NCBI GenBank assembly: GCA_011033025.1
Contig: WFMF01000093.1
Span: forward strand, 1 to 64,000
From: Beroe forskalii
Taxonomy: Eukaryota > Ctenophora > Nuda > Beroida > Beroidae
Direction of reading: 5' to 3'
Length of the DNA stretch: 64,000 nt
The notes under the pieces are model-generated. The model was given only the letters and a program-made list of their open reading frames with translations, was not told the DNA's origin and searched no databases. Position 1 is the stretch's first letter, and each line of letters begins with the position of its first letter. This document shows, in pieces, positions 17,241 to 52,618 of this stretch. The translations under genes and the position numbers were made by a program.

Positions 17241-17480
17241 GCGAGGGAGGAGGGGGTGAGGGGAGGAGGAGGGGTGAGGGGAGAGAGGAAGGGTGAGGGG
17301 AGGAGGGGTGAGGGGATAGAGGAGGTGTGAGGGGAGGGGTGAGGGAGGAGAAAAGGGTGAGGGAGGGAGGAGGAGGGTGAGGGGAGGGGTAAATGGTAGG
17401 TGAGGGAGGGAAATGGTAAGGGAGGAGGGGGTGAGGGGAGGGAGAAACGGTGAGGTTAGGAGGAGGGGTGAGGGGAGGAA
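17241..17480. repeat. purine-rich low-complexity tract (GAGGGGTGAGGGG)
   Basis: Irregular GAGG/GTGAGG repeats on the plus strand form a long polypyrimidine tract on the minus strand, directly 5' of the first visible YLPM1 exon. Frames inside it are compositional only. Confidence 0.85.
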
Positions 17481-20755: not shown

Positions 20756-22121
20756 GTTTGGTTTTGCTAAGCGGCAAATCAATGAGATCTTTGAGAAATT
20801 CAAAGTTTTCCTTGAGGAACTAGATAGTTTCATTGGTAAGTGTATAATTTACATACTTTGTCACTGTCAATTGCCAGGTTTCACAACACTTTAATGTATA
20901 TAATTTCACAGTAAATCCTTTCTCATCAAATTGTTAATAATATTTTCACTTCATTAATATAAAGTTAGTGTAGTTGATATAGGTGGTTCTATATATATTA
21001 TTTCAATATGCTATAGAAATTGAAAATTGAATTGAAAAACCTAATGGTAGCTGGTGTTCTCTTATATGGGGAACAACAAAAACCCAAGAATCGACCTCAG
21101 ATACCTCCCCCCACCTGTTCCCCTTAAATATAATACATTCTATTTGACATTTCACTCCGCTGGATTACTTCCAAAGTTCCAATTGGGTAGGGAATCTGTG
21201 CAGGAAACTATGAAACCTGCAGTTCTGACATAACAATCATTACTCAGGTCAGTCCTACATCAAGACCAGTGAGGACCTGAAGGGAGAACACAACGACACT
21301 CAGAACATGTTGAGACAGATCGTCAGCATTGTGGAGATCATTGACAGGGATCACATGAAGGTAGGGAGATTAGAGTCTCGTGGAGCTTCTGAGGGCAGAG
21401 AAACTGAAAAAAGTTTCTGTGCAATCAAATGTGACTCTTTTGCCACAAATATATTCTGTTTATGGAAACTACTCACGAATATTTATTTTCACCTTGCTCC
21501 TCCTTTATGTTACAGTGAAGATTAATGTGTGCGCCACTATACAGTAGGTTTAAAGGAGTGGATATCAGCCCACAGGAGGTTGAGTTATTCAATAATTACA
21601 TGATTACATGCTTTGATATTTGAATCAAAGTCATCTTAAGTACATTTTAATCAATTAGAATCTAAAATCCATTTGGTGTTAAAATGCAAGTGCTTCTCAC
21701 TAAATTCTTTACTCTGTGTGCATGCCATCTTATACACGCAATACGACTATTGTGTTACATACACAAGGCAACTACTGACTTCTGCATTACTGATATCTGA
21801 GCATGACGAAATAACGGAAATAATAGTTAACAATTGCACCAGAGTACACAGCTGTAGAAGTATTAAAAAATTTCGAAATATCAATTGTCCTTTTCTTTCC
21901 CAAACTTCATTTCATCTTCACTCCACCTTATCACCCTCCAGGTTGCATTTTTCGGTCGTACCAGCAACGGTAAGAGCACCGTAATCAACTCCATGTTGAG
22001 AGACCAGATCCTGCCCTCTGGCATCGGACACACTACCAACTGCTTTCTCTCCATAACTGGGGTGGACGTGCAGGAGCCGTACCTCCTCAGACCTGACTCT
22101 CCGGACAAGAAGAACGCTCAG

Positions 22122-22640
22122 GTGGGACAATTAGTGGTAGAGTGGTAGGAAGTGGGGGGACAATTAGTGATGGAGTGGTAGGAAGTGGGGGGACAATTAG
22201 TGACGGAGAGGTAGGAAGTGGGGGGAACAATTAGTGGTGGAGTGATAGGAAGTGGTGGGACAATTAGTGGTAGAGTGGTAGGAAGTGGTGGGACAATTAG
22301 TGGTGGAGTGGTAGGAAGTGGGGGGACAATTAGTGGTAGAGTGGTAGGAAGTGGTGGGACAATTAGTGGTAGAGTGGTAGGGAGTGGGGGGTACAATTAG
22401 TGATGGAGTGGTAGGAAGTGGGGGACAATTAGTGGTGGAGTGGTAGGAAGTGGGGGACAATTAGTGGTAGAGTGGTAGGAAGTGGTGGGACAATTAGTGG
22501 TGGAGTGGTAGGAAGTGGGGGGACAATTAGTGGTAGAGTGGTAGGAAGTGGTGGGACAATTAGTGGTAGAGTGGTAGGGAGTGGGGGTACAATTAGTGAT
22601 GGAGTGGTAGGAAGTGGGGTGGAAGGGAAAATTAGTGACG
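22122..22640. repeat. 33-bp minisatellite filling mitofusin intron 4 (copy 1)
   Basis: Units of about 31-33 bp based on ACAATTAGTGGTGGAGTGGT plus AGGAAGTGGGG begin at the donor itself and continue for about 15 copies. The intron is framed by a direct repeat: exon 4 ends in AAGAAGAACGCTCAG and the intron 3' end reads AAGAAGAACGCTCAG before exon 5. Confidence 0.9.
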
Positions 22641-23352
22641 TATTTCGGCCTCGGGTAGATTTCTGATTTCACTCGAAATAAGTGAAGCTGATTATTTTCT
22701 TGCGAATATTATCTCAACTCAAGAAGAACGCTCAGACGATAAAAAGGCTGTCTCACTCTTTGAGCAAGGAGTGCTTGGACCCCAACGCTATTGTGAGGCT
22801 CTACTGGCCCAAGACGAAGTGTGCGCTTATCAGAGATGAGGTGGTCCTAGTGGATAGGTGGGTTTGCTAGTGATATCCTATAACTGGTATATCAAAGTAG
22901 TATAGACAGAACATCAATTTCTTATTAATTTAATCCAAATTACAACAACTCTCTGATAGCCCAGATATCGACATGTCTTCTCACTCTCTCAAACTCCCTC
23001 CCCTCTTTCTTGCACCCCGTAATTCTCGCACCCCCTTATCCGTTAATTAACTCTCTCGCCTTCCTTCACACCCTAAAAGTAGACAGAACATCTCATTAAT
23101 CCACTAACTGTCCTACAGTCCGGGTATTGACATGTCACCAGATGTAGACGGTTGGATTGACACGCATTGCCAAGACGCAGATGTGTTCGTCCTAGTCGCC
23201 AACTCGGAGAGCACTCTGATGCATTCTGAGAGTTGGAAGAAGTGTTGTGTGATTTGAGATATTACATTCTAGCTATCAAAAATATTGTGAACGTTGTCCT
23301 TACATCAGTTAACTGTAATTACACCAGGTAACTGTAACAGTGTAACTGATCA

Positions 23353-23472
23353 ATTAATCAAAGAATAAGTTAATTAATCAGTCAATTAATCAGTCAATTA
23401 ATCAGTTAATTAATCAGTTAATTAATCAGTTAATTAATCAGTTAATTAATCAGTTAATTAATCAGTTAATTG
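23353..23472. repeat. 12-bp repeat (GTTAATTAATCA), about 9 copies
   Basis: Located in mitofusin copy 1 intron 6, close to the acceptor of exon 7. The homologous intron of copy 2 has the same repeat expanded to about 48 copies and then split by a 13-kb insertion. Confidence 0.95.
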
Positions 23473-23580
23473 TGTTCCCCAGGAGAAGAATTTCTTCCGG
23501 AGAGTGAACGCTAAGCTTTCTCAGCCCAACATCTTCATTCTGAACAATAGATGGGACTGTAGTGCTGGCGAGGATGTCCT

Positions 23581-23700
23581 ACATAAGGAGGAGGCGAGTA
23601 GTTTATTACTTTACATAAGGAGGAGGCGAGTATTTTATTACTTTACATAAGGAGGAGGCGAGTAGTTTATAACTTAACTTAAGGAGGAGGCGAGTTATGA
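23581..23700. repeat. donor-containing 32-bp repeat, mitofusin intron 7 (copy 1)
   Basis: Exon 7 ends ACATAAGGAGGAG|GCGAGT. This junction is repeated at about 32-bp steps (four junctions in all), so several identical GC-type donors follow the real one. Joining GAG|GCGAGT to the exon 8 acceptor gives the conserved [11 protein letters not shown], which supports a GC-AG intron. Confidence 0.85.
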
Positions 23701-23944
23701 ATTCTAATTAATTGCACAATTTGCACGAAATACCCAAAATAATGCTAAAACTGCCGAGTTCTGATATCCATGATATTTACTTCAAAATGTCACACACTTT
23801 CAAAACACTGCCAAGTTTTTACCAAATCCTCCTCAGGTTCGGTCCCAGCATCAGGAGCGTACGATAGAGTTCATTGTGGATGAGTTGGGTTTAATGACCA
23901 GGAAGGAGGCCAACGAGAGGATCTTCTTCATTAGTGCGAAGGAG

Positions 23945-24070
23945 GTTAGTTAATTAGGTAGCTAATTACTAATGAGGTTAGTTAATGAGTTGGCTAATTA
24001 CTAATTAGGTTAAAGTTGATTAGGTGGCTAATTACTAATGAGGTTAGTTAATGAGTTGGCTAATTACTAA
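23945..24070. repeat. donor-anchored repeat after mitofusin exon 8
   Basis: GAG|GTTAGTTAAT at the exon 8 end recurs three times as GAGGTTAGTTAATGAG or AGGTTAAAG with TGGCTAATTACTAAT between, at 31-32 bp steps. The unit again includes the exon end and donor. Confidence 0.75.
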
Positions 24071-24716
24071 TTAGGAAAAAAGGGAAAAAGCAGGGGGTTC
24101 CAACCATCCAAAAAACTTTGGGGGGGGGGCCCCCCCTTTTGTAGACATCAGTTCTTAATTGGCAGGTGTCGCCACCTCAAAATGGGGTTTTTCAAATTTT
24201 TCAATTGTGGGCCCTTTCAGGTAAACACTGTTAAATCAGTATCAAAAAATTGTGGTTTTTAAAATTCAGACAATGATCTCAACATGGCGACACCTCAATT
24301 TACTTCTGTGATCCGATTTTGCTTTATAAGTGTTCTGAAAGACGGGGAACAAAAAAGAGGTATTTGTTTTATCATTTTCCCTGTGAACTTTTCTTGTTCA
24401 AAAAAATTGCAGGTTCAAAAAGTTCAGCAATGTTTCATCGAAGTCAGGACATTGGGGGAACAACTGAAAAGCCTCTAAGATTAAAAAAAGAAAAAAAAGG
24501 GGGAGCCAGAGTAATAAACACTTAATCAGTTTCCAGACCATAATTATGGAGGTGAAAAGAATGGAGGTGACTTTCTTTGCACATATTGATTTTGGTGTGT
24601 TATTAATATTTCCCTATGGTGAAATATTATTTTTTCATTTAAATATTTCGATGAAAATGATTTATTTTTCTACAAAGGGGGTTCATGAAATGGAAATTTT
24701 TTAATTTATAGAAATC
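24071..24716 (-). pseudogene. degraded, inverted copy of the 61.5-62.1 kb gene region
   Basis: Read on the minus strand this matches 61490-62110 in order: TAGACATCAGTTCTTAATTG, GTGGCGACACCT, GGGGGAGCCAG before AGTAATAAACACTTAATCAG, and TCATCGAAATATTTAAATGA. Many short insertions of G, A and T in homopolymers break the frames. It lies where the rest of mitofusin copy 1 would be expected. Confidence 0.6.
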
Positions 24717-31421: not shown

Positions 31422-31972
31422 AGAAACACAGTGTTGAGCAGTTTATATCTTTTGTAAATAATTATTTGAGATTTTCTGTGATAGATCTTGGAATATATCA
31501 ATTCCATTTGTTTTACTTCTAAACTAGCTAAAAATATACAATAATTATAGTGTAAGTCATAGAAATATTAGAAACTGCATTGGGGTAAGTACTAAGTGCA
31601 TGACACTTGAAAAGAATAGTTTTGGGTGTGCTTGATGATCCAAAACTCAATCTACACCCTTGAATTAACCTAATTACAATACAATTTGATTTCTTGCATA
31701 ACATCCATTTACCAGTATTTGGGGAATGATATTATTAATCATTGGTAAATAATAATAGTAGCACTATCAAATTTGAAATCATGAATATGATGCTGAACAT
31801 TACAATGTAAAAAAATTTGTTCTCTGTCATAGAACTGCTTCTTGAGTCTGCTCAGAAAGAACATATAATTTTGAAATTTTTTAGGGATGATAATGACAAT
31901 CATCATTGTTCTTTCAGTGACCTGTGACACACCACCAACCATTATATATTTTGAGTGAGTGATTCTAATGAC

Positions 31973-34900
31973 ATGACCCAGACTGTTGCTGGTTCTCCTG
32001 GGTTACGTCGCACACTCTCTCAGACTGATTATGAAGTCCTCAAGGCCATGCCTGACTTGTCAAGTATTCCCCCTCTTCAAAGGTAAAGTTCTAATACTGA
32101 GTATCTCATTATGATGACAAGCTATTGTTTTCCTTCTTGTAGTACTGGTTATTTTATTCCTATTGAGCTCATTATAAGTGATTTCAAATATAAAGTGAAG
32201 TCAATTGGAAGGAGTTCTCCATCATTTGATTGGTAATGTGATTAAGATTGTAATGAGCTACTTTCTAAAGTAAATATTCCCTGTGTGCTGGCATTATAAC
32301 CGCAAATTTCGTCCTCAGAGGAGTGGTTTTTATGTACTAATATATTCATGATTCAACATCTTCAGGTTTGGTTTTGCTAAGCGGCAAATCAATGAGATCT
32401 TTGAGAAATTCAAAGTTTTCCTTGAGGAACTAGATAGTTTCATTGGTCAGTTTGTAATTTCACAGTAAATCCTTTTTCATCAAATTGTTAATAATATTTT
32501 AACTTCATTGATATAAAGTTAGTGTAGTTGATATAGGTTGTTCTATATATTATTTCAATATGCTATAGAAATTGAAACTTGAATTGAAAAACCTAATGGT
32601 AGCTGGTGTTCTCTTATATGAGGAACAACAAAAACCCAAGAATCGACCTCAGACACCTCCCCCCACCTGTTCCCGCTTACATATAATGTTCTATTTGACA
32701 TTTCACTCCGCTGGATTACTTCCAAAGTTCCAATTGGGTTAGGTAGGTAATCTGTGCATGAAACTATGAAACCTGGCAGTTCTGACATAAAAATCATTGC
32801 TCAGGTCAGTCCTACATCAAGACCAGTGAGGACCTGAAGGGAGAACACAACGACACTCAGAACATGTTGAGACAGATTGTAAGCATTGTGGAGATCATTG
32901 ACAGGGATCACATGAAGGTAGGGAGATTAGAGTCTCGTGGAGCTTCTGAGGGCAGAGAAACTGAGAAAAGTTTTTTTCTGTGTAATCAAATGTGACTCTT
33001 TTGCCACAAATATCTGTTTATGGAAACTACTCACGAATATTTATTTTCACCTTGCTCCTCCTTTATGTTACAGTGAAGATTAATGTGTGCGCCACTATAC
33101 AGTAGGTTTAAAGGAGTGGATATCAGTCCACAGGAGGTTGAGTTTCCTTATTACATGAAATTAAGAAATCACTTAATTAAGGTGATCGAGTCGAATTTAA
33201 CCTTAATTAAGTGCTCGTAAATTTTTACCTACCTTATTTTAAATACACCTACCTTTTAAGTAACCTTAATTTTAAAAACAATGTGACGTCATACTGGAAA
33301 AAACTACCTGGATGATTTGATTGTGTACACTTAAACTATCCCAGTTGTAGGTTAACCCCTCTGTTACTGTGCACGGAAAACGAATTATAGTTGAAATTGT
33401 TAATTAATGAATGGAAGGGTTTTGCAGTTTCAGAATACCACAGCTATAACTCCAGGAAAGCTTACTTGACAAATTTTCGTCAAATTGTGGCAATTACGAA
33501 AAGTCGAACCAAAATTTAACCAACAAAAATTTTCATCGAACACTTAATCATAAGAGCACAAATGTAAGGTTACACAAAATTAAGGTTATGGCCATTAATT
33601 TCACCTTAATTAAGTGCCCGTAAATAATATTTAACCTTAGTTACTCGACAACCTTAATTTCATGTAATAAGGTATTCAATAATTACATGATTACATGCTT
33701 TGATATTTGAATCAAAGTCATCTTAAGTACATTTTAATCAATTGGAATCTAAAATCCATTTGGTGTTAAAATGCAAGTGCTTCTTACTAAATTCTTTACT
33801 TTGTGTGCATGACATCTTATACACGCAATACGCCTATTGTGTTACATACACAAGCCAACTACTGACTTATTATGATAACTGAGCATGACGAAATAACGGA
33901 AATAATAGTTAACAATTGTACTAGAGTACACAGCAGTAGTAGCATTTAAAACTTTCGATTTTCGAAATATCAATTGTCCTTTTCTTTCCGAAGCTCCACT
34001 TCAATCTTCACTCCATCTTATCACCCTCCAGGTTGCGTTTTTTGGTCGTACCAGCAACGGTAAGAGCACAGTAATCAACTCCATGTTGAGAGACCAGATC
34101 CTGCCGTCTGGCATCGGACACACCACCAACTGCTTCCTCTCCATTACTGGAGTGGACGTGCAGGAGCCGTACCTCCTCAGACCTGACTCTCCGGACAAGA
34201 AGAACGCTCAGGTTGGGACAATTACTTATTAGTAGTGGAGTGGTAAGTTGTGGGGGACAATTAGTGATAGAGTGGTAGAAAGTGGGGGGACAATTAGTGA
34301 TGGAGTGGTAGGAACTTGAGGTGGGACAATTAGTGATGGAGTGGTAGGAAGTGGGGGGACAATTAGTGGTGGAGTGGTAGGAAGTGGGGGGACAACTAGT
34401 GGTGGGGTGGTAGGAAGTGGGGGGAAAATTACTGATGGAGTGGTAGGAAGTGGGGGACGATTAGTGATGGAGTGGTAGGAAGTGGGGCGGGGACAATTAG
34501 TGATGGAGTGGTAGGAAGTGGGGGTGGGACAGTTAGTGGTAGAGTGGTAGAAAGTGGGGGTGGGACATTGATGGATTGTGTAAGATTTAGACTTCAGAGT
34601 TTAGGTACATACGTAACTTTGGTAGACTTTCGATTTTACTTGGAATATGTGAAGTTGACTATTTTCTTGCGAATATTATCACAATTCACAACTAACGCTC
34701 AGACGATAAAAAGGCTGTCTCACTCTTTGAGCAAGGAGTGCTTGGACCCCAACGCTATTGTGAGGCTCTACTGGCCCAAGACGAAGTGTGCGCTTATCAG
34801 AGATGAGGTGGTCCTAGTGGATAGGTGGGTTCGTTGTACCTGCTCTGTTCATACTTTTTAAACTGTTGTTTATTTACAGAACATCAATTTCTTATCAATT

Positions 34901-37900: not shown

Positions 37901-40900
37901 CAAACTTTGAAAACTTTGGCAAACGCTTCCACTTTTGGAGTTTGCCAAAAAAGTGTTTTGCCAAAGTTGCCATAATTCTAAAGTTTGCCAAAATTTGCCA
38001 AAGTTTGCCAAAAATACCCCCAAAATTTTGTTATTTCTGATTTCCTGTCCACTGTGCATGCAGGACGTTTGCATAATGGTTTTTGAGGAAGCTGAATCGA
38101 TTTCCAATGCTTAATTTTCATTCATACCTTCCCCTTCGAGGCTTTACTGGTGTCCACGCCTGGACCTTCCTCTGCAAGCACCCCATTGTTTACAAAAAGG
38201 TATCGTCAGGACAAGGGTTAGAAAATTTCGAAACCTTTTTGGTTCAAGAAGAAAGATCTTTATAATTTCCAGGCATGGATCCATGTATCTACTATCTACT
38301 ACTAGTTCATAAGATAACGTGTCTTCGGCAAAATGGTACCACAGGAATATGACCAACATTAGCCTCCATTAGCATACATGGCAGCTGAGTGGAGGCTAAT
38401 TCAAGAATGAGCCTTCATGGAGGCTAATGGTTGCAATAGGCTAATTTTCGAAAAATAGCCTCCACTGTGATGGCTAATTAGCCTCCACTCAGCCTCAATG
38501 GAGGCTAAGATTTTGGTTTCACCTCCACTAGCCTCCACTGAAGTCTGAAGAATTAGCCTCCATTAGCCTCAACGGAAAATAAAATATAACATTTTCGTGG
38601 AGGCTAAAGCTTTAATTTATGGAGGCTAGTGGAAGCAATTTGGAGGCTGAGTGGAGCCTAAATCAATTAGCCTCCATAAAACTTGTAAAATGTGCACTAA
38701 AAACAATTCATGGATTCAAACTTTCAGACAGCCCCAACTATCCTCCACTCAGCCCATTAGGACCCACTCAGCCTCCCCTAGGCTCCACACAACCTCCACT
38801 CAGCATCCACTAGGCTCAATTCAGCATTCACTAGGCTCCACACAACCTCCACTAGGCACCACACAGCCTCCACTAGGCTCCACACAGCCTCCACTAGTCT
38901 CCACCCAGCCTCCACTAGGCACAAGTAGCCTCCTCTAGGCTCCACTCGGCCTCCACTAGACTCCATTCAGCCTCCACTATGCTCCACTAGGCTCCACTCA
39001 GCATCCACTAGGAATTACTCAGCCTCCACTAGTCTACGTTAAACCTCCACTAGGCACCAAGAAGCCTCCACTAGGCTCCACATGACCACAGCCTCCACTA
39101 GGCTCCACTCAGCCTCCTCTAGGCTCCACTAGACTCCATCCAGCATCCACTAGGCACCAAGTAGCCTTCACTAAGCTCCACACAGCCTCCACTAGGCTCC
39201 ATTAACCTCCACTAGGCTCCAGCTCCACGCAGCCTCCACTAGTCTCCATTAACCTTCAGTAGGCTCCACTAGGCACTATTCAGCCTCCATAGGCACCAAA
39301 TAGCCTCCACTAGGCTCCACAAAGTCTCCACTAGGTACCAACTATCCTCCAGTCAGTCTTCACTCGGCTCCACTCGGCCTCCACTAGGCTCCATTGAGCC
39401 TCCGCTAGGCTCCACTAGGCTCCATTCGGCCTCTACTAGGCACCAAGTAGCCTCCACTAGGCTACACTCAGCCTCCATTAGGCTCCCTTCAGATTCCATT
39501 AGGCTCCACTCAGCCTCCACTAGGCTACACTTATCCTCCATTAGGCTCCCTTCAGATTCCATTAGGCTCCACTCAGCCTCCACTAGACCCCACACAGCCT
39601 CCATTAGGCTCCCTTCAGATTCCATTAGGCTCCACTCAGCCTCCACTAGGCCCCACACAGCCTCTACTAGACTCCAACCAGCCTCAACTAGGCTCCACTC
39701 AGCCTCCACTGAACCACTAGTCCCCACACAGCCGCCACTAGGTTCCACTCAGCCTTCACTAGGCTCCATTCAGCCTCCACTAGGCTTCATTCAGTCTCCA
39801 CTAGGTTCCACCCAGCCTCTACTAGGCACCAAGTAGCCTCCACTAGGCTACACTCAGCCTCCATTAGGCTCCCTTCAGATTCCATTAGGCTCCACTCAGC
39901 CTCCACTAGGCCACTTAGCCTCCATTGAAACTCCCTTCAGATTCCATTAGGCTCCACTCAGCCTCCACTAGGCCCCACACAGCCTCCATTAGGCTCCCTT
40001 CAGATTCCATTAGGCTCCACTCAGCCTCCACTAGGCCCCACACAGCCTCCACTAGACTCCAACCAGCCTCAACTAGGCTCCACACAGCCTCCACTGAACC
40101 ACTAGGCCCCACACAGCCGCCACTAGGTTCCACTCAGCCTCCACTAGGCTCCATTCAGCCTCCACTAGGCTTCATTCAGTCTCCACTAGGTTCCACCCAG
40201 CCTCAACTAGGCTCCACTAAGCCTCCACTGAGCTCCACCCAGCCTCTACTAGGCTCCACTTATCCTCCACTAGGCTCCACACATCGTTCATTAGACTCTA
40301 CTCAGTCTCCAGTGACCACTAGGCTCCAATCAGCCTCCATAAGGCTCCACAAAGCCTCCATAAGGCTCCACTCAGTATCCACTCAGCCTCCACTAGGCCC
40401 CACACAGCCTCCATTAGGCTCCCTTCAGATTCCACCAGCCTCCTCAGGCCACAGCCTCCACTAGACTCCAACCAGCCTCAACTAGGCTCCATTCAGCCTC
40501 CACTAGGCTTCATTCAGTCTCCACTAGGTTCCACCCAGCCTCTACTAGGCACCAAGTAGCCTCCACTAGGCTACACTCAGCCTCCATTAGGCTCCCTTCA
40601 GATTCCATTAGGCTCCACTCAGCCTCCACTAGGCCCCACACAGCCTCTACTAGACTCCAACCAGCCTCAACTAGGCTCCACTCAGCCTCCACTGAACCAC
40701 TAGTCCCCACACAGCCGCCACTAGGTTCCACTCAGCCTTCACTAGGCTCCATTCAGCCTCCACTAGGCTTCATTCAGTCTCCACTAGGTTCCACCCAGCC
40801 TCTACTAGGCACCAAGTAGCCTCCACCCCACTAGGCTACACTCTCAGCCTCCATTAGGCTCCCTTCAGATTCCATTAGGCTCCACTCAGCCTCCACTAGG

Positions 40901-43900
40901 CTACACTTAGCCTCCATTAGGCTCCCTTCAGATTCCATTAGGCTCCACTCAGCCTCCACTAGGCCCCACATTTGGCCTCCATTAGGCTCCCTTCAGATTC
41001 CATTAGGCTCCACTCAGCCTCCACTAGGCCCCACACAGCCTCCACTAGACTCCAACCAGCCTCAACTAGGCTCCACACAGCCTCCACTGAACCACTAGGC
41101 CCCACACAGCCGCCACTAGGTTCCACTCAGCCTCCACTAGGCTCCATTCAGCCTCCACTAGGCTTCATTCAGTCTCCACTAGGTTCCACCCAGCCTCTAC
41201 TAGGCTCCACACAGCCTCCGCTGACCACTAGGCTCCACTCAGCCTCCACTAAGCCTCCACTGAGCTCCACCCAGCCTCTACTAGGCTCCACTTATCCTCC
41301 ACTAGGCTCCACACATCGTTCATTAGACTCTACTCAGTCTCCAGTGACCACTAGGCTCCAATCAGCCTCCATAAGGCTCCACAAAGCCTCCATAAGGCTC
41401 CACTCAGTATCCACTCAGCCTCCACTAGGCCCCACACAGCCTCCATTAGGCTCCCTTCAGATTCCATTAGGCTCCACTCAGCCTCCACTAGGCCCCACAC
41501 AGCCTCCACTAGACTCCAACCAGCCTCAACTAGGCTCCATTCAGCCTCCACTAGGCTTCATTCAGTCTCCACTAGGTTCCACCCAGCCTCTACTAGGCAC
41601 CAAGTAGCCTCCACTAGGCTACACTCAGCCTCCATTAGGCTCCTTTCAGATTCCATTAGGCTCCACTCAGCCTCCACTAGGCTACACTTAGCCTCCATTA
41701 CGCTCCCTTCAGATTCCATTAGGCTCCACTCAGCCTCCACTAGGCCCCACACAGCCTCCATTAGGCTCCCTTCAGATTCCATTAGGCTCCACTCAGCCTC
41801 CACTAGGCCCCACACAGCCTCCACTAGACTCCAACCAGCCTCAACTAGGCTCCACACAGCCTCCACTGAACCACTAGGCCCACACAGCCGCCACTAGGTT
41901 CCACTCAGCCTCCACTAGGCTCCCATTCAGCCTCCACTAGGCTTCATTCAGTCTCCACTAGGTTCCACCCAGCCTCTACTAGGCTCCACACAGCCTCCGC
42001 TGACCACTAGGCTCCACTCAGCCTCCACTAGGCTCCACTAAGCCTCCACTGAGCTCCACCCAGCCTCTACTAGGCTCCACTTATCCTCCACTAGGCTCCA
42101 CACATCGTTCATTAGACTCTACTCAGTCTCCAGTGACCACTAGGCTCCAATCAGCCTCCATAAGGCTCCACAAAGCCTCCATAAGGCTCCACTCAGTATC
42201 CACTCAGCCTCCACTTGGCTCCAACCAACCTCCACTAGGCACCAATCAACCTCCGCTAGACACCGCACAGCCTCCACTAGGCGTCACACAGCCTCCATTA
42301 GGCGTCACACAGCCTCCACTAGGCTTCATGCAGCCTCCACTAGGCTGAGAGGCTCCACCCAGCCTCCACTAGGCGCCACTAAGCCTTCATTAGGCAATAA
42401 GCATTCTAAAACCGTTGTGTTGGGTTATGCTGCAGGAATCCATGGAAACTGGTGACCAGTGGTTACGGTGGGGCCTTACCATTGACTTTAGGCTGCGTAT
42501 GTAGCGTAGATGCTTCGGTTTTAGGGCTTCATACAACTGTTTGATCCGTTGATAGGATTACTTAGTACTTAAATGCATAAAACTTAAAGTAAGAGATAGT
42601 GAAATATCGCATTTGTTACTGTAGCCTACTACTCTATTCAATGTGAATGTGCTCTCTGCTACAGCTTCTGGGTAACGTCAAAATGTGAAACAGACCTTGG
42701 GAATCGATTCAACATCCTTGAAAAGTATATTATGTGTACTTAAAGTGTTGCCAAAGTGCTCAAAAAGTTGTTTTATTTTTGGCAAACTTTGGCAAACTTT
42801 GGCAAATGCTTCCACTTTTTTTGGAGTTTGCCAAATAAAGTGTTTGCCAAAGTTTGCCATAGTTTGCCAAAGTTTGCCTTACCTCCCCCCCTAAAAAGAA
42901 ATAGATGGGAATATTTATATACTTATTAAACCACCAAAACCGTTGGACGGTTGGTCTAGTAACCCCCCGCTGGTTTGGATGTGATCAGCCCATTTTGTCT
43001 CTTTTCAGGTTCCGTTGTCACATCCAAACCCGCGGGGGGTTACTAGACCAACCGTCCAACGGTTTTGTGGTGATATCTTGACAGATAATGTAGTTTAAAC
43101 CCATGTTACTCGGACCCCCGTTATTCGGACCCCCGTTATTCGGACCCCCTTTATTCGGACCCCCGTTATTCGGATCCCCGTTATTCGGACCCCCGTTATT
43201 CGGACTCCCGTCATTTCGGGCGTTATTTACCCCGTTATGCGGACCCCTGTTATTCGGACCCCCGTCATTCGGACCCCCGTCATTCGGCCCCCCGTCATTC
43301 GGACCACCGTTATTCAGACCCCCGTTATTCAGACCCCCGTTAGTCGTATTTAAACTCATTTCAACATAATCAAGTCGAAAATCCCGTGTAAACATAAATT
43401 TCTTCAAATCCCCTAATTTCTACAAAACGTCCGTGTGTGTACTCACGTGCTGAAATATGGCAACTAGATCTAATTTCACGTGCATTAGTCGTATTTAAAC
43501 TCATTTCAACGTAATCAAGTCGAAAATCCCGTGTAAATATCAATTTCTTTAAATCCCCTAATTTCTACAAAACGTCCGCGTCAACTCACGTGCTCCACTA
43601 GTTCATCGTATATTTCCCATCCCTATTCACTGCAAGACATGGAGAAACCATTATCAGTGAACCATCGTATCACAGAATAGGATTACAGTACAATTTTTCG
43701 TCATAAACGTAATTTCAATCAATTTGCAGTTCAATTTTTAGAAGCCTCCCACGACAACAATCTTCGACCGATCGCCCTGAGACTCGTTTTATAGCTAAAT
43801 CGCAAGGTCTTAAAAGCAGCATATCAAAGTAAAACATAATCCGATGAAAACTATTGAGTTAGAGATGTCCAAAGTAGCGCAAAATAGCGTTCTATCGCAA

Positions 43901-46900
43901 AATACGCTATTTTAGTGGTTTTACGCGATTTTGATGACGTCATCACAGCACCCAAATAGACTCAAACCAACTTTCCATATAGCCTATAAGACAATTCCAC
44001 CTTAGTACAACATTCTTTGACCGTTCTCATCTCAAGATAAGTTGCAGTTCTTGACACCTCACTCATTTAACTTTCGTCCTATAATTTGGAAATCGATTTT
44101 CACCGTACCTTAGAAATCGCGTATATCTCGATGAAAAATCGAGATAGCCCAATAATCCGCGTATGATTTTTCGAAAGCTCTTTAAATTTGCTAAAAATTG
44201 TCCCGAAAAAATCAGACCGTTATCTCCTTTCCTTCTTGGTGAAAAATGCGCTCGAAATTAGCCTATTTTCGCTAAAAAGAAACAAAATTTCGCTAAGTTG
44301 ATGACGTCGTGACGTGAAAATGACGTCACCAGAACTTCTCTTATAGCCTATAACATTTTCCCATCTTAGATCAACAAAACCTGACCTCGATCATGGCTCT
44401 ACCATTTCCCGTTCTTGACATCTCATCGTTTTAAATTTGCTCCCAATTATCATGATATATATTATATATATATTATTATATATTATATCACCCTGTGACA
44501 CTCAAATCTCTAACTTATACCCCTGGCCAGTTTTCTTTTTACCGCGGGGGGTTACCGCCCTGGCCAGGGCGGGAATATACTTATATACTTATATATAGCT
44601 GATAATTTAGGACCAAATTTGAATCGCTGAGATATCGAGAACCACAAATGGTAGAGCCTTGATCGAGGGCGGGTTTTTTTTCAACTAAGATGGGAGAATG
44701 TAATAGGCTATGTAGGAAGTTTTGCGGATCGATTTTTTTGCTGTTATGACGTCATCAAAATCGATTAAATCACGATTTTTAGCGAAAAACGTAATTTTGG
44801 ACCACTTTGAAGCACTGTATCTGAAAAGTTTTCTACCGCGTCATGTTTTCCCGACTTATGTAGCATCAAGACCTCGAGATTTAGCCACAAAAAGAAGTTT
44901 CATGGTGATTGGTGAAAAATGAGGTCGTGGGGGCCTCCAAAAATCGAGGATCTTCACTAGGCCAAAATATGGTGACTTTGAGCATCTATATCTCAGCTCA
45001 CCAACATTGCTCCATCTTTTCCAGGCGTATCAATGTTATTTCTCAGTCAAATATCAAGGGTAAAAAGTTTCAAGTCTTCCCGATTTAAGGGGGAAGGTGT
45101 GGTGGCCCTCAAAAAACGTAAATTTGAGCCGCGCGAAAAGTCAAAAATTTGGCTAAGTCCAATTTCAGGCCGAGTTTCAAAGTGCAGGGCTGTTGTGCTA
45201 CATGATAGTGACTGAATCAACATTTTGATCTACTTGGTACTTGAATATCACAAGAAATGGCCCATGGAAATGAAGTGCACGTGAGTTCACGTGGATTTTG
45301 TGAAATTAGGCAAATTTGAAATTTGAGTCTTAAGACCGAATTTTCGACTTGATTTGATTGAAACAAGTCACAATGCAATAGACAAAAACCTCTTACAATT
45401 AAAAGGCGGCGCCCCTGTGACTCTGTGAGGGGGTTGCTATGACGACCGCTTGCGGTTTTGTCTGAGGTATAATATATAATAATATCATGATAATTGGGAC
45501 CCATCTTAAAACGATGAGATCTCAAGAACGGGAAAAGGTAGAGCCATGATCGAGGTTACGTTTTGTTCATCTAAGATGGGAGTGTGGCTTAGGCTATGTG
45601 AAGGTTCGGTGACGTCATTATGACGCTTTTATGACGTCATCAACTCAGCGAAATATTCTTGCTGGCGAAAATAGGCCATTTTCGAGCGCATTTTCACCAA
45701 AAAAGGAAAGAGATAGAGTTCTGATTTTTCAGAATGATTTTTAGCAAATTAAAAGAGCTTTCAGAAAATCATATGGATCATTGGGCTATCTCGATTTTTC
45801 ATCGAGATATACGCGATTTTCTAAGGTACGGTGAAAAATCGATTTCCAAACTTATTGGACAAAACTTAAACAGGTGAGATGTCCAAGAACTTCGACTTAT
45901 CTTGAGATGAGACCGGCCAAAGTATGTTGGCTAAGGGGTTTTGGTTAGGCTATTAATTTTTGATATTTTGGGGGGTGTGGCATCAAAATTGCAAAACCAC
46001 TAAAAAGGGATTTTGCGAAAAGCTATTTAGCCCCATTTTGGGCATCTCTCTCAAATGTTTCTGGTTTTTTTTACTTTTTCGCTTTTTAAAAAAGTTTGCT
46101 ATAAACAGTTTCAGGGAAAATTTTGAGGGCCAAAAATTGAACTGCAAATTGATTGAAATTATGTTTATGAAAAAAAATTTGGTTTTTAATCTATTCTGAT
46201 GTGGGAATGTTTTCCCCTTTTCCTTTGAAAAAAAAGGGGGGGGGAGCCTAGCGGGACTTTTGTGAAATTGGGGTTTTTAAAAAAATTAATTTACACCGGG
46301 GTTTTTTGTTGATTACGGAAATGAGTTCAAAAAACACTAATAATGAAATAGATGCATGTTTACTTAACATTAATTTTTTTAAAAAAAAAAATTGTATTTT
46401 GGGGTTTTCATTAGTTAGTTAAAAAGTTCAAATAAAGACTAATGCCCCTGAAATTAGATCTTTTTTATATTTGGGGGTGAGTTACGGGGGCGATTTAGAA
46501 AAAGAAATATTCAATTCTGTAATTTCCCAAGTTAGAATAAATGTTTTGGACTTCGTGAGGGTGAGTTACGTGGTTCCCTCGGGGTTTGGGCTAAATTGGG
46601 GGGTTCAACTACGTGAGGAAAAATAACGTGGCCCAAAACTCCCTTGGGAAATAACGGGGTTCAAACTAACTTCAAGATTCCCCACCAAAACCGTTGGACG
46701 GTGAAAAGTAACCCCCCATTTGGATTTTTAAACAAACCTGAAAGGAACAAAATGGGATATCACACCCAAAAACAGCGGGGTTACTGAACCCGAAAAAAGT
46801 TTTTTGGTGATTTAAAAATGAACATTCTTGAAATTAGGGGCGGGGCCGGGTTAATTTTTGTAATTTTCCAAAGGTTAACCTGATTTTTAGATAACGACAC

Positions 46901-49597
46901 CAGTCGGGGTTACATGGAGCACAGACACCAGTCTGATTTTATACGTATAACTGACACCAGTCTGACGTTAGATGAATCAATGACGCTAGACACAACACTG
47001 ACACCAGTCTGACTTATCACTATCATTGACACCCGTCCTACATATCACCTTGTAAAACCTTGTATCACTGACACCAGTCTGACGCATTATTGAAACCAAT
47101 TTGGAGTATCACTGACACCAGTCTGATCTTTCTTGACACGTTTCTGACGGATTGCTGACACCAGTCTGGCGTATCACTGACACCATTCTTATTTATCACT
47201 AACACCATTCTTACAGATCATTGACACCAATATGACATATCACTGATTCCAGTCGGATGTATCATCGAAATCAGACACATCACTGCCACCAGTTTGAAGT
47301 TAGACGTATCACTGAAACCAGTCTAAAATAAGACGTGTCAATGATACCAGTCTTAAGTTAGACGTATCACCGACACCAATGTGACGTATCTTTGATACCA
47401 GTCCGGAGTATCACTGACACCGGTGACCGGTCTGATGTATCGCTGACACAAGACCGGAGTATCACTGACACTGGTCTGATGTATCGCTGACACCAGTCTG
47501 GAGTATCACTGACACCGGTCTGATGTATCACTGACACCAGTCTGGAGTATCACTGACACCGGTCTGATGTATCGCTGACACCAGTCTGGAGTATCACTGA
47601 CACCGGTCTGATGTATCGCTGACACCAGTCCGGAGTATCACTGACACCGGTCTGATGTATCGCTGACACAAGTCCGGAGTATCACTGACATCGGTCTGAT
47701 GTATCGCTGACACCAGTCTGGAGTATCACTGACACCGGTCTCGATGTATCGCTGTTTCAGTCTGGAGTATCGCGACACAAGTCCGGAGTATCACTTACCG
47801 TCCGGTATCACTTATCGCTGACACAAGTCAGTATCACTGACACCGGTCTGATGTATCGCTGACACCAGTCTGGAGTATCACTGACACAGGTCTGATGTAT
47901 CGCTGACACCAGTCCGGAATATCACTGACACCGGTCTGATGTATCGCTGACACATGTCTGGAGTATCACTGACACTGGTCTGATGTATCGCTGACACCAG
48001 TCTGGAGTATCACTGACATCGGTCTGATGTATCGCTGACACCAGTCTGGGTATCACTGACTGGTCTGATATCGCTGACACCAGTCTGGTATCCTCCACAC
48101 ACCGGTCTGATGTATCGCTGACACAAGTCCGGAGTATCACTGACACAAGTCAGACGTATCACTGTCTCCAGTATGACACATTGCTGACACCAGTCTGACG
48201 TATCACTGACTAGGAAACTGCTGGTAACTGGTTAACCAAACCGTAACAGAAATAGTGGTTGACTGGACTTTTTTGCCAACTGTAACCGAAACCGTATCCG
48301 AATGTTTTTAAATGACTGATTACTTGATTAGGACAAACGGAAGGTTAACCGAACCCTAACCGAAAAACGGTTTAACTGGCCCTTTTGTCAAACCCAACCG
48401 TCTAACCGTCACCAGATTTATTGAAAAAGGTAACCGGTCATTTGCCATCAATGACACATTCTGACGTTAGACGTATCAGTGTCCAGTGATATCAATTACC
48501 AGTTTGAACTTTGACGTATCACTGAAGCCAGGTTGAAATTTCACTGATGTGTCGTTGTCGGTGGATCATATGATTCGGGCTACAAACAGGAACTGGTCGA
48601 TTCAAGCCGAATCAAGCCGAACAAGCGGAACAAACCACCCAGAACCACCCAAAAACTTCCCCAGATGTAGCCGAAATGATCCGAAACGAGCCGAAACAAG
48701 CGAATCAACCCGAGCCAACCCCAACCCTAACCATAACCTGGGTTGATTCGGGTTGATTCGCTTACAGTTTTGGATTTTTTCGTTTGTTTCGGATTGATTT
48801 GCATGTTTCGGTTTGTTTCGGCCTCGGGGAGGTTTTTGGATTGGTGCAGGGTGGTTTCTGATTGTTACGGCTTGATTTGGATAGTTCCTACTTGTAGTAT
48901 CGACGATGATTCTGTATAGAGGTCCTAGAGAGGTCATGGTCCTCTGTGATGGAAAGATAAAGAAAGAGTATTATTTATTCAGAATGCCGTGGCAATCACT
49001 TATAATATAGCCCATCCAACGGAAGAACGGAGTAATGAGCTCTGTACTAACAGACAGTTACCAAGCATTCACGGAATCAAGCATTATTTTGTTTCCACTT
49101 TCATTTTTACTTGCATTTCCACTTTTCGCCTGTCGATGTTCTTCCACTATATAAGTATATAGGCCATATCATGAGGAGTTAATTTACGAAGGAAAATAGG
49201 CTACAGTAAGATACCATGGCTATAGTCATATATGATATTAATTGTTGGATTGCATATTTAACTATGGAATTATAATTGATGAACTCATCCAAAGCTATAC
49301 ACCTTAAGAGTTGGAAGCAAAAAATGTCCAATTTTGTCCAAAGTTAACCTCATTTTTGAGAATTGGACAAAAAACCATTGGACAAAATTGGACAAAATTG
49401 GACAAAATTGGACTTGGCCCCGCCCCTAATTAATCAGTTAATTAATCAGTTAATCAGTTAATTAATGAGTTAATTGTGTTCCCCAGGAGAAGAATTTCTT
49501 CCGGAGAGTGAACGCTAAGCTGTCCCAGCCGAACATCTTTATCCTGAATAACAGATGGGACTGTAGTGCTGGCGAGGATGTCCTACATAAGGAGGAG
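31973..49597 (+). CDS. MFN: mitofusin copy 2, exons 1-7, giant intron 6
   Basis: Exons: 31973-32082, 32366-32445, 32805-32917, 34032-34211, 34703-34824, 35120-35228, 49487-49597. All phases join into one frame starting [20 protein letters not shown] and reaching HKEE. GTPase motifs are intact: GRTSNGKST (G1), DSPG (G3), NNRWD region (G4). The exon 6 donor is GT here, unlike copy 1. Intron 6 is about 14.3 kb because its 12-bp repeat was interrupted at 36031 by about 13.4 kb of foreign sequence, and the repeat resumes at 49434. Exon 7 ends at a GC-type donor followed by about 13 tandem copies of the same junction. Exon 8 was not found downstream, where a minus-strand gene begins, so the copy is truncated or rearranged. 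ATG 31973 is the first in frame; an acceptor-like AG just upstream (31954) suggests a 5' intron. Confidence 0.85.
33146..33672. mobile_element. 527-bp MITE in mitofusin copy 2 intron 3
   Basis: Ends CCTTATTACATGAAATTAAG and its complement are inverted. Copy 1 lacks it: the flanks GGAGGTTGAGTT and ATTCAATAATTACATG are contiguous at 21577-21602. The interior has repeated TTAACCTTAATT phrases and TTAAGTGC(T/C)CGTAAAT in both orientations. No protein is encoded. Confidence 0.85.
34212..34570. repeat. 33-bp minisatellite in mitofusin intron 4 (copy 2)
   Basis: The same unit family as copy 1 intron 4 but fewer (about 11) and more diverged units, again starting at the donor. The intron's 3' end repeats AACGCTCAG, the last nine bases of exon 4. 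Confidence 0.88.
35440..36030. repeat. 12-bp repeat (GTTAATTAATCA), about 48 copies
   Basis: Highly uniform 12-bp units; the last five read GTTAATTTATCA. The repeat is cut at 36030 by the 3' tail of a LINE and resumes for three units at 49434-49470 just before exon 7. Confidence 0.97.
36031..37664 (-). mobile_element. 5'-truncated non-LTR retrotransposon (CR1/L2-type reverse transcriptase)
   Basis: On the minus strand the frame 37241-36354 encodes reverse transcriptase with [29 protein letters not shown] and KINPSKTE; further upstream come [12 protein letters not shown] and [13 protein letters not shown]. The minus-strand 3' end is a TTTA microsatellite (36031-36049), as usual for CR1/L2 elements. 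The reading frame has an in-frame stop (AE*QSGYR) and frameshifts near 37240 and 37530, so the element is dead. The 5' truncation at about 37664 abuts the CCCGCCCTGGCCAGGGCGG repeat, and the 3' end sits inside the 12-bp array of mitofusin intron 6. Confidence 0.9.
38360..42400. repeat. 4-kb minisatellite (CCTCCACTAGGCTCCACTCAG)
   Basis: The basic unit is about 20-27 bp of the form AGCCTCCACTAGGCTCCACT. Longer blocks recur, for instance ACACATCGTTCATTAGACTC at 40269, 41312 and 42101, and AGGCTTCATTCAGTCTCCAC at several sites, so a higher-order structure exists. Near 38365-38640 the unit appears in both orientations (GTGGAGGCTAA). Frames rich in S, T and P or in W, E and G are products of the repeat. 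Confidence 0.95.
42930..43072. mobile_element. foldback MITE with about 63-bp arms
   Basis: The arms 42932-42994 and 43015-43072 are inverted: CCGTTGGACGGTTGGTCTAG, TAACCCCCCGC and GTTTGGATGTGA. A corrupted relative lies at 46680-46812, where the same phrases are recognisable with many small changes. Confidence 0.85.
43100..43345. repeat. 15-bp minisatellite (CGGACCCCCGTTATT)
   Basis: About 16 units with minor changes. As the unit is 15 bp the frame stays open on both strands (minus-strand NGGPN repeats); no start context or flanking domain suggests a gene. Confidence 0.95.
43342..43600. repeat. direct duplication of about 110 bp
   Basis: The segment starting TAGTCGTATTTAAACTCATT at 43342 recurs at 43486, both running through AATCAAGTCGAAAATCCCGT to TCTACAAAACGTCCG. 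Bases differ at a few positions. Confidence 0.85.
43900..45940. mobile_element. large imperfect foldback, about 470-bp arms
   Basis: The arm 44005-44480 is inverted at 45475-45935: shared phrases include ATCGATTTTCACCGTACCTT, TATCTCGATGAAAAATCGAG and CATCTTAGATCAACAAAACC. The part between contains a further related segment (44600-44760) and the right end of the 37.7-44.6 kb composite. TGACGTCA occurs repeatedly. No protein is encoded. Confidence 0.75.
45941..46900. other. error-like stretch, inflated homopolymers
   Basis: G-, A- and T-runs are unusually long and frequent (for example AAAAAAAAGGGGGGGGG near 46230). Known repeats appear corrupted by small indels, such as the MITE relative at 46680-46812. 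This looks like uncorrected long-read sequence rather than biology. Confidence 0.55.
46901..48215. repeat. 22-bp minisatellite organised in 44-bp dimers
   Basis: Alternating CTGACACCAGTCTGGAGTAT and CTGACACCGGTCTGATGTAT, each plus two bases, are clean from about 47380 to 48130 and degenerate outside. Confidence 0.93.
48216..48900. repeat. degenerate repeats and a foldback at 48582-48898
   Basis: 48220-48430 has repeated AACCGTAACAGAAA-like phrases. From 48582 to 48722 and 48738 to 48898 two arms are imperfect inverted copies (AATCAAGCCGAA, AACCACCC, CGAATCAACCCGA against TCGGGTTGATTCG, GGTGGTTTCTG). No gene. Confidence 0.65.
48901..49433. other. AT-rich spacer with TTGGACAAAA repeats
   Basis: The distal end of the insertion in mitofusin intron 6. 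ATTGGACAAA recurs near 49320-49410. At about 49434 the 12-bp mitofusin repeat resumes, marking the far edge of the inserted block. Confidence 0.6.
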
Positions 49598-50020
49598 GCG
49601 AGTATTTTATTACTTTACATAAGGAGGAGGCGAGTATTTTATTACTGTACATAAGGAGGAGGCGAGTAGTTTATTACTTTACATAAGGAGGAGGCGAGTA
49701 TTTTATTACTTTACACAAGGAGGAGGCGAGTAGTTTATTACTTTACATAAGGAGGAGGCGAGTATTTTATTACTTTACATAAGGAGGAGGCGAGTAGTTT
49801 ATTACTTTACATAAGGAGGAGGCGAGTATTTAATTACTTTACATAAGGAGGAGGCGAGTATTATATTACTGTACATGAGGAGGAGGCGAGTAGTTTATTA
49901 CTGTACATAAGGAGGAGGCGAGTATTTTATTACTTTACATAAGGAGGAGGCGAGTAGTTTATTACTTTACATAAGGAGGAGGCGAGTATTTTATTACTGT
50001 ACATAGGAGGCGAGTATTGA
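49580..50020. repeat. 32-bp array of exon-end plus GC donor, about 13 copies
   Basis: The unit is TACATAAGGAGGAGGCGAGT plus ATTTTATTACTT. The first copy is the real end of exon 7 (HKEE) with its GCGAGT donor; the others repeat the junction exactly, with T/G or A/T changes only in the intronic half. Copy 1 has only four junctions. Confidence 0.95.
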
Positions 50021-50222
50021 TTTTTGAAAATTTTATTTTTAGATGTGTTTAATCTAAAAAATAGAATGTTTAAAATTTTTTACAAGTAGGTATGTTTTAT
50101 GCAACATAGAAAAATTTCAGGAGTCAAGTTAGAACACATTTTGTACAGATGTGAATCCAAGGTTCGGGGTGGGGCTGCTATGTGTAACCAATTAGTTTAG
50201 AGTGTACATGTTATCATAACAT

Positions 50223-50640
50223 ACGGCGAATATTTTATTAACACGGCGAAAATATTTTCTAAGGCGAATATTTCCGAACACGGCGAAATATTCTCTAAGA
50301 ATAAATATGTAACCCAGTAGGCGAATACTTTCCAAACACGGCGAATTATTCTCTAAGAATGAATGTGTTACCCAGTAGGCGAATATTTTCCTAACACGGC
50401 GAAATAGAGTCTACGAAGATTGTTTATAAAACAGGCGAATAATTGCTTAGCATTGCGTGTGTTTACAAACATGCGACCACTTTGGCGAATATAATGCTAG
50501 TGTGGCGAATATTACCCATCACTTTACACGCATTCTTAGAAAGTTAACGCATAGGGTGTGGCCTGTGGCGAATATCATCTTAACAATGCGATCATTTTTA
50601 TAGTGTGGCGAATTCAATACCTAGTGTGGCGTTGTTCTAA
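50223..50640. repeat. diverged repeat around GGCGAATA
   Basis: GGCGAATA or GGCGAAATA occurs more than ten times at 20-60 bp spacing, with AACACGGCGAA and CTCTAAGAAT as companion phrases. An old, decayed minisatellite. Confidence 0.75.
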
Positions 50641-50879
50641 TCTGGCAGGGGGCTTTTGAAGTTAACTGATGAACGCTCAGAGCAGGTAAATAACTTGATT
50701 TAAACGACAGCAGTTCGCATTGCTGAGCAACTATATAACTATCGCGTATTCTACCGTCAGTATGGTCGGTAATATTTCAAGTTCCTTGATAAGTGCTTCA
50801 CGTTCAGCAATATCAAAGTTCAAAATCTAAATATTATCTTGGCCTTATTTCACAATATTTACTCCTACACTCACTGATT

Positions 50880-52618
50880 TCAGGATTCTAAGAATATATC
50901 CTGTTTTTTGAGATCTATAAGGGCCTTGTTGGCTTGTGAGTGTTGCAGTGGGGCCGCGTAAACCTGAACACAGGTAGCAGAGTGAGGAGAGTATCAAATT
51001 AATGATGCTGGATATACTGATGTATTCATTGATGCTGGTTCAAAATTCAATTGTGAATTGACTAATTGAGATCGTACAAGTATGCACAATTTTGCTTAAC
51101 ATTATTTTCTGAAATGTGAAAAGATAATTGCACAATAATTGTGAAACTATAGAGAGAGGTTGTGAAATCATAGCACTAAACTTACTTTCATCATGTCTTT
51201 GAGGGACATGATGTAGCGGTACTCGTGATCCAATATCTGTTGCAGGACTTTGTGCCGGTCTGTAACCATGTACGAGAGATGGGAGTTAACAGCTGCACCA
51301 CCGCCCACAACTTCTGAAGAGAGATGGGAGTCATAAATATTGAATATATTTGTGCATTATCTCAGTATTACTTGGGGGATCACGAAATCGACATAGCATT
51401 TGACCAATCAGCGTGCGAGTTTTGGGGGAGATTTCAGTCAGCTGATGCATAGATCATATTGGTCAAACGGACAAGTGGCTAGGCATAGGTCCGTTATCAA
51501 GCTTCTAGTTATTGGCTGACAGTTGACACCCTGTTCCGCTGTTTATGAGATGGAGAGTCGCCGAGGAGCGATCAGTGGACTGCTACTTTGCACTGGTATT
51601 CTACCATCAATACAATATGAATGTGAAAATTATTAACTTATGCTGCTATACATTGATCAAACATGGGTATTGGATGATATAGGCCTCATGGAAATATATA
51701 GCACGCTATTCCCTTGAGTTAATCACTATCCCAATTTCTCGAAAGAGAGAGATGAGGACTCTTCCAGTACCAACAAAAAGTATCTACAAGCGAGCTCAAC
51801 ATTCACAAAATCTCGATTACAATATACAGCATGCAAAATTAAAGCACTGCGTACTTGTCTTGCAGTGTTTGGTTGTCAGATCTCCTCCCCCACTCCTTTT
51901 CCCACTCGAATCTCCTCCCCCACTCCTTTTCCCACTCGAATCTCCTCCCCCACTCCTTTTCCCACTCGGGTCTCCCCCACTCCTTTTCCTACCCTGCTGA
52001 ACCCTCACTATCCCCGACCGAATAAAGCGTCTGGAGTGCTCGGAGAGCCTCTTAGCTCCGTGTTTCGTTGATGACGTCATCTTCTTGGTGGAGGTCGTCA
52101 CTTTCCGGACACCCTGGCTGGTGGAACGCTTGAGGCGTTTTGAGGAGGACGCAGCGATCCGGTGAGCTTCCTCCAGCACATTGAGTTGGGGGTTTTCACA
52201 CATTGTGTGGGGGAGGGTAGGAGGGGAGTGGGAAGTGGAAGAGGGGCTGGAGAATGGAGAGGGACTAGAGAAGATAGGAGGAGTGGGGTTTGAGAAAGGA
52301 GGAGTGGGGAAGGGAGGGGAGGTGAAACTGGAGATTGGAATGGGGTTGGAGAAGGGAGGGGGAGTGGGGAATGGAGGAGAAGTTGAGCTGGAGAAGGGAG
52401 TGCAGCTGAAGAAGGGAGTAGGGGGAGTAGGGGGAGAGGGAGCAGCGGATAACGTTGAAGAAGAGGCTACTGAAGTAGGAGAAGAAGTGGATGATTGGGT
52501 GGGTATCGGAGACAATGGAGGGCTCTTCAAAGAGTCCAGGAAATGCTTCTCTACTTTAGGGTTGCTCTTGTGACGCGTTAGGTACTTCGTACTTGCGGGC
52601 TCTTTGTAACACTGGTTT
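50880..52618 (-). CDS. RhoGEF (DH domain)-like gene, three exons visible
   Basis: Minus-strand exons: 52618-51993, 51313-51186, 50963-50880; phases agree. Exon 1 is Pro/Ser-rich (PPFPTPP runs) and then basic (SSKRLKRSTSQGVRK, STKHGAKRLSEHSRRFI). Exons 2-3 read TDRHKVLQQILDHEYRYIMS, LKDMMKVYAAPL and LKKQDIF, which fits the first helices of a Dbl-homology domain (IxxxExxYhxxL, then PL and IF). Dbl proteins activate Rho GTPases. In this reading exon 3 meets TGA at 50882-50880 just after DIFLES, whereas a one-base shift would continue ILKS to a GTGAGT donor; a frameshift or base error is likely. The rest of the DH and any PH domain were not found, so this may be a broken gene. Upstream exons beyond 52618 were not identified. 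Confidence 0.55.
51880..51992. repeat. 30-bp repeat directly behind the RhoGEF-like exon 1 donor
   Basis: On the minus strand, starting at the donor GTAGGAAAAGGAGTGGGGGA, three to four units of 30 bp (GAGTGGGAAAAGGAGTGGGG plus GAGGAGATTC) follow. The frame stays open through them, so read-through would add KRSGGGDSSG repeats. Confidence 0.85.

Follow-up and report, generated by a model that had tools for sequence, protein, structure and literature searches.

Genes and junction arrays of the window

The stretch analysed here (the window) comprises the first 64 kb of contig C1058 in a genome of 216 Mb and 1134 contigs, and carries two copies of a mitofusin (MFN) gene, a YLPM1-like gene and a RhoGEF-like gene, in whose introns minisatellite arrays abut or span the splice sites. 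Mitofusin copy A (exons 2-8, 20756..23944) and copy B (exons 1-7, 31973..49597), both on the plus strand, were delineated by exon mapping, Pfam matches to Dynamin_N and alignment to human MFN2 (6jfk), with the exon ends KNAQ|T, EE|VR and SAKE all falling within aligned stretches. Over exons 2-7 the two proteins agree in all 238 residues, and the coding sequences differ at 19 of 715 bases. Because B contains the intron 4 and intron 7 units of A in differing copy numbers, A and B were not counted as independent cases. The name YLPM1 is an assumption based on the human sequence, the best Pfam match (E 0.1) being to a different family; the RhoGEF-like gene was named by eye, and a Pfam search with its exon gave no match.

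A preliminary description had placed arrays at five donors, with unit sizes of 27-33 bp. Both statements were borne out by Tandem Repeats Finder (TRF) combined with exon mapping, which gave periods of 33 bp (MFN intron 4), 32 bp (MFN intron 7), 32 bp (MFN intron 8), 27 bp (YLPM1-like) and 30 bp (RhoGEF-like). It had further stated that exon end and donor lie inside the unit in MFN introns 7 and 8 and in the YLPM1-like gene. For MFN intron 7 this holds: the array of copy A (23580..23695, plus strand) starts at -14 relative to the first intron base and consists of 3.6 copies of a 32-bp unit made up of 14 exon bases, a GC donor and intron sequence, while copy B has 13.4 copies of the same unit (49584..50010, plus strand). 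The donor reads GAG|GCGAGT in all four listed copies of A and all 14 of B. It also holds for the YLPM1-like array (16911..17155, minus strand; TRF, exon mapping), which starts at -53, includes more than 50 exon bases and has a 27-bp unit encoding (D)GWFKFIII followed by the donor. As the units of MFN intron 7 and of the YLPM1-like gene carry coding exon ends, exon sequence has been copied into the intron. The statement does not extend to MFN A intron 8, where the array (23942..24075, plus strand, 32/66 bp, exon end at 23944) starts at -3 and its unit, beginning GAG|GTTAGT, contains only three exonic bases (GAG). The homopolymer-rich sequence beside this donor (24080-26100) looks like poor consensus, and intron 8 was therefore not read to its end.

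The two remaining arrays contain no exon base or one. In MFN A intron 4 (22122-22735), 15 copies of a 33-bp unit extend from the donor CAG|GTGGGA, starting at -1 (22121..22619, plus strand; TRF, exon mapping); in B (intron 34212-34702), 9.9 copies of the same unit begin 16 bp past the first intron base (34228..34560, plus strand). In intron 1 of the RhoGEF-like gene (51992-51314, minus strand; donor AGG|GTAGGA), 3.8 copies of a 30-bp unit start at +3 (51880..51989, minus strand).

Arrays on the acceptor side were absent from the preliminary list. One lies in MFN A intron 6 (23364..23471, plus strand), with nine copies of 12 bp that stop 11 bp short of the acceptor; its counterpart in B (49427..49475, plus strand) is similar. 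Another, pyrimidine-rich on the minus strand (17246..17479, minus strand), precedes the acceptor of the YLPM1-like exon that starts at 17238, leaving 7 bp to the exon, and a similar array is present in a second YLPM1-like copy on contig C947.

Pieces of reverse-transcriptase-like open reading frames, recognised by eye, occupy 36193-37283 (minus strand) within the 14-kb intron 6 of mitofusin copy B. Two 2.7-kb stretches in inverted orientation (29657-32339 / 60762-58104), with 95% identity, carry mitofusin exon 1, a third copy of which is found at 58352-58471 on the minus strand. Other inverted matches in the window are 29006-29275/61364-61102 and 24140-24716/62117-61463.

Junction arrays in duplicate gene copies and other genes

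The duplicates allow single-copy and multiplied states of the same junction to be compared. A CCT gene on contig C558 is present in two inverted copies about 36 kb apart. In copy B alone, a 37-bp unit of exon end and donor with 12 exon bases is found in about three tandem copies (TRF x2.9) across the donor, with GAC at both breakpoints by eye; the unit is single in copy A. Conversely, a 31-bp acceptor module, comprising a branch-like TAAC, pyrimidines and TTTCAG, is repeated about four times (x3.7) in copy A only, with AGAA microhomology at both breakpoints by eye, and is single in copy B. Arrays are thus private to one gene copy, and both intron ends are affected. Near-identical inverted pairs on one contig may have resulted from the assembly folding two haplotypes together; 'copy' would then mean 'allele', and the argument on the birth of the arrays would be unchanged. 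At two further acceptors the unit contains coding sequence: a myosin gene on contig C225 has 7.9 copies of a 34-bp unit that includes the exon start TTCAAC, and the unit of an array on contig C163 includes 16 exon-start bases.

The YLPM1-like copies differ in array length (27-bp rows, TRF x5.6 in the window and x2.1 on C947) and in the state of the first donor. On C947 the latter is intact (ATAATAG|GTGGGT), giving WFKFIIIDAVN; in the window the corresponding site (17129) reads ATAATAG|ATGGGT, with AT in place of GT, and the next donor of the array (17102) has GT. By eye, this next donor is the only GT donor of the window copy that keeps the frame, and its use would add nine codons. The window copy has apparently lost its first donor, and an array donor could replace it, although a sequence error is possible.

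Where the units were searched for throughout the genome with at most one mismatch, they proved private to their genes: all 18 matches of the MFN intron 4 pattern lie in the two intron 4 arrays, all 16 of the MFN intron 7 pattern in the two intron 7 arrays, and all six of the YLPM1-like pattern in the two YLPM1-like copies. The acceptor motif CCCTCGTGTTTCAG, common to C225 and C558, occurs at 15 exact places genome-wide, eight of them at these loci.

Array edges relative to chance

Introns outside the window were anchored by exon-by-exon Pfam matches of CCT and myosin genes, with no annotated donors used. From a first set of 69 neighbouring exon pairs, 7 were skipped (order, overlap, distance), 3 were without solution and 59 were solved; a second set added 10 pairs (2 skipped, 1 without solution, 7 solved). 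With a cut at a profile deviation of at most 6 residues, a donor score above 2 and an acceptor score above -0.5, 54 of the 66 solved introns passed (48 + 6). The splice-site matrices were generic. Thresholds and anchoring windows were fixed once part of the data had been inspected, and the counts were also obtained over 12 score and tolerance settings. A kinase search yielded mostly genes with the domain in one open frame, and its 30 loci entered only the unit-length statistics of arrays. As null model, arrays were shuffled inside their own introns, and an array edge within +-12 bp of the junction was considered anchored. For the window, 11 non-redundant introns were considered; these do not include MFN intron 8, which was not read as far as an acceptor, or introns 2-6 of MFN B, which repeat those of A.

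Donor-anchored arrays are found in 4 of these 11 introns, with 1.1 expected (P 0.004), and donor-spanning arrays in 2, with 0.33 expected (P 0.034); for acceptors, 1 anchored array compares to 1.7 expected. Over all 16 window introns, the numbers are 4 against 1.3 for donors (P 0.018) and 2 against 2.0 for acceptors. Among the 54 outside introns, 14 contain arrays, which are anchored at 3 donors (1.8 expected, P 0.26) and 6 acceptors (2.6 expected, P 0.027); over the 12 settings, P ranges from 0.08 to 0.75 for donors and from 0.001 to 0.097 for acceptors. Donor anchoring thus differs between the window (4/11) and the outside sample (3/54; Fisher P 0.013), so that the window, being the place where the pattern was noticed, is to be regarded as atypical. 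The emphasis of the preliminary description on 5' splice sites as such is not upheld: donor anchoring was not replicated outside the window, and therefore the arrays are better described as abutting or spanning either splice site, with no special role for donors.

TRF reported 101 rows for the window. Merged arrays with periods of at least 10 bp cover 27.7% of it; their share is 9.8% in the sampled genes and 16.5% in the introns of these genes. Periods of 27-33 bp are found in 9 of 38 window arrays but in only 2 of the 60 arrays sampled elsewhere, so that this unit size is a trait of the window.

Origin of the arrays

The junction-spanning cases are probably mirage-type minisatellites, a kind described in amphioxus (see below), born by small tandem duplications across exon-intron junctions. 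The preliminary description had suggested a mechanism common to the unrelated arrays, and such a mechanism, in the form of re-duplication across exon-intron junctions, is supported by the coding sequence in the units, the single-copy state in duplicates and the restriction of the tested units to their own genes. From these features we infer the mutational step and the choice of the copy that is spliced, as follows. Small tandem duplications, mostly of tens of base pairs, would hit junctions just as other non-coding DNA in a minisatellite-rich genome; the two cases in which the duplication ends could be read by eye have 3-4 bp of microhomology there. Duplication of a donor would spare the protein provided that the 5'-most donor stays in use, and duplication of an acceptor would be harmless provided that the 3'-most acceptor is used. 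Surplus junction copies would turn intronic and subsequently expand or contract via slippage or unequal exchange, resulting in an array that begins at or just inside the edge of an exon, be it the one before or the one after the intron.

Several points weigh against this reading. The 54 outside introns derive from 18 segments of two gene families, with some segments duplicating each other, and are a small sample. Spanning arrays, with at least 6 exon bases, number 1 at donors (P 0.41) and 2 at acceptors (P 0.08) among them, with 0.5 expected for each, which gives no clear excess at junctions over the remaining intron. The MFN intron 4 and RhoGEF-like arrays are nearly without exon sequence and may be intron arrays halting at the exon. 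Where an acceptor is multiplied, competition from its upstream copies is to be expected.

The most serious rival, which we consider possible but distinctly less probable than birth by junction duplication, dispenses with any junction mechanism: minisatellites would be born at any place within introns and be trimmed at exon edges by purifying selection, so that array ends would pile up there. The high array content of sampled introns and of the window is in line with this, as are the two arrays just mentioned, which halt at the donor and include hardly any exon sequence; the exon-containing units of MFN intron 7, the YLPM1-like gene, C558 copy B, C225 and C163, however, must originate across the junction. 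A stronger version of junction duplication, in which minisatellites are born preferentially at donor and acceptor junctions and the copies form a reservoir that rescues donors, as in the YLPM1-like gene, and seeds introns, as in the cases of MFN intron 4 and of C2, a CCT intron, appears doubtful. If it were true, introns of this non-bilaterian genome would be continuously re-edged by duplicated splice sites.

The seeding of introns was considered on account of direct repeats between exon end and intron end. In MFN A, the end of intron 4, CAAGAAGAACGCTCAG (22720..22735, plus strand), is a 16-bp direct repeat of the end of exon 4 (9 bp in B), and the protein match of exon 5 extends back into it; intron 4 is present in both copies. 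Such repeats of at least 6 bp are found in 4 of the 54 outside introns (13, 7, 6 and 6 bp), compared to 0.28% of 2862 mismatched pairs, the longest being that of the CCT intron C2; the two of 6 bp may be due to chance. Repeats of this kind are the mark expected of introns born by tandem duplication and would be compatible with such an origin.

Selection retaining repeated donors as backups, a suggestion of the preliminary description, is improbable as a general explanation. The GT to AT change in the first YLPM1-like donor of the window, with the next in-frame array donor adding nine codons and C947 keeping the first, is the one case that fits. GCGAGT is kept in 14 of 14 listed units of MFN B intron 7, but most other positions of these units are almost as uniform as the donor, which points to homogenisation. 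Moreover, the 32-bp units shift the frame, and GT is gone from 5 of the 10 downstream copies recognised in MFN intron 4 (15 units by TRF count). The broken donor of MFN A intron 6 (GAGAGT at window position 23228; GTGAGT in B) has no array beside it.

Slightly less credit still is given to a donor-specific process similar to that proposed in the preliminary description, such as slippage or re-replication tied to the 5' splice site (e.g. via R-loops or U1 binding). The donor excess in the window introns would speak for it, but it went unreplicated in the outside sample, small as that is, where the acceptors show the larger excess, and the Fisher comparison marks the window as not typical. Insertion at junctions, whether of mobile introners or of a dispersed family of minisatellites, is very improbable: a 33-34 bp array of CACCACTCCAAATACCCC at both 11033-11895 and 18280-19557 indicates that some families spread locally, but the three junction units tested are gene-private and two of them carry exon sequence of their own gene. 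As all matches lie within their own gene copies, nothing mobile is needed for the units of MFN introns 4 and 7 and the YLPM1-like gene; neither these units nor CCCTCGTGTTTCAG were found at many unrelated places, and a mobile origin was rejected for all four.

Relation to known systems

Amphioxus 'mirages' are described for the globin genes BflGb6/BflGb9, Adh3, TnC and PGBD5 (PMC3087553, PMC3902484). They affect 5' and 3' boundaries with apparently undisturbed splicing, vary between haplotypes and were proposed as a route to new introns (PMC3087553), and many of their repeats contain AG/GT signals (PMC3087553, PMC3902484). The arrays described here likewise affect both boundaries and vary in copy number between copies or haplotypes (3.6/13.4 in MFN intron 7, 15/9.9 in MFN intron 4, 1/~3 on C558, x5.6/x2.1 in the YLPM1-like gene), be these alleles or paralogues. 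Their units span the boundary at the donors of MFN intron 7, the YLPM1-like gene and C558 copy B and at the acceptors of C225 and C163; they do so by only three bases in MFN intron 8 and not in the MFN intron 4 and RhoGEF-like arrays, which match the description of mirages only loosely. The identity of the MFN A and B proteins over exons 2-7 would hint, if only indirectly, at undisturbed splicing here too.

Differences concern unit size, which is 27, 32, 34 and 37 bp in our clearest cases as opposed to ~150-160 bp in the amphioxus globins and 10-72 bp in Adh3, and splicing, which was followed by reverse transcription PCR in amphioxus, while the present cases are known from genomic sequence. 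Particular to this genome are the multiplied GC donor and the births read from duplicate gene copies. That the host lies outside the cephalochordates is a difference in the place where mirages are found, not in their structure; what is new is the occurrence of mirage-type arrays in an animal distant from amphioxus, the kind itself being already known there. Human IFI6 (6-16/G1P3) has an exon-end minisatellite that multiplies the donor, in one gene and with shorter units than here.

The direct repeats at both intron ends (16 bp in MFN intron 4, 13 bp in C2) resemble those of intron gain by tandem duplication (PMC4974935), and repeat expansion and intron gain have been linked in Cryptococcus (PMC2395259). 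Dual-specific AGGT sites in tandem repeats (PMC10809524) share with our arrays a repeat unit with a splice motif; there, introns lie inside the tandem repeats of a gene such as polyubiquitin, whereas the arrays described here are mostly intronic themselves.

As to the host, COX1 on contig C1134 (13,339 bp) contains four in-frame TGA codons, with TGA = Trp, and AGA/AGG fall at positions that we take to be Arg in COX1. Among 20 of 104 homeobox matches read by eye, none was of Hox type; locus L086 looks like POU class. Code and homeobox set argue against amphioxus and fit a non-bilaterian such as a ctenophore, to which we presume the mitochondrial contig, too, to be similar. The genome of the ctenophore Hormiphora contains 13% tandem repeats by the same program (PMC8527503). 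No on-topic work on minisatellites in ctenophore genomes, or on minisatellites together with introns in sponge genomes, was found in the open-access literature.

Mirages in a distant, minisatellite-rich animal suggest a process that operates generally in genomes with rapid birth of minisatellites. Such arrays constitute natural competition tests, in which as many as 14 donors, or some 8 acceptor modules, stand in a row and are near-identical to one another, and with the duplicates (C558, YLPM1-like) it can be traced how splice sites arise, are lost and are rescued.

Other repeats and duplications

The 33-34 bp minisatellite CACCACTCCAAATACCCCTTGTCTGCACACGT is present in ~26 copies at 11033-11895 and ~38 copies at 18280-19557, some 6-7 kb apart, with several frames open. 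A 334-bp tandem array (1008-4173) comprises 9.5 copies with 96% matches, and an array with a period of 335 bp was also found in the sampled locus L068. Inverted gene pairs on the same contig, the two members matching with identical or almost identical scores, were observed on C558, C198, C695 and C573 (homeobox pairs; CCT), of which that on C558 alone was aligned; these pairs may be palindromic duplications or haplotype fold-backs of the assembly. The sampled locus L071 (C225:1041609-1042105) contains two adjacent myosin exons that match the same profile positions (~104-173) with different sequence, which amounts to a duplicated exon of the motor domain whose two versions may be mutually exclusive.

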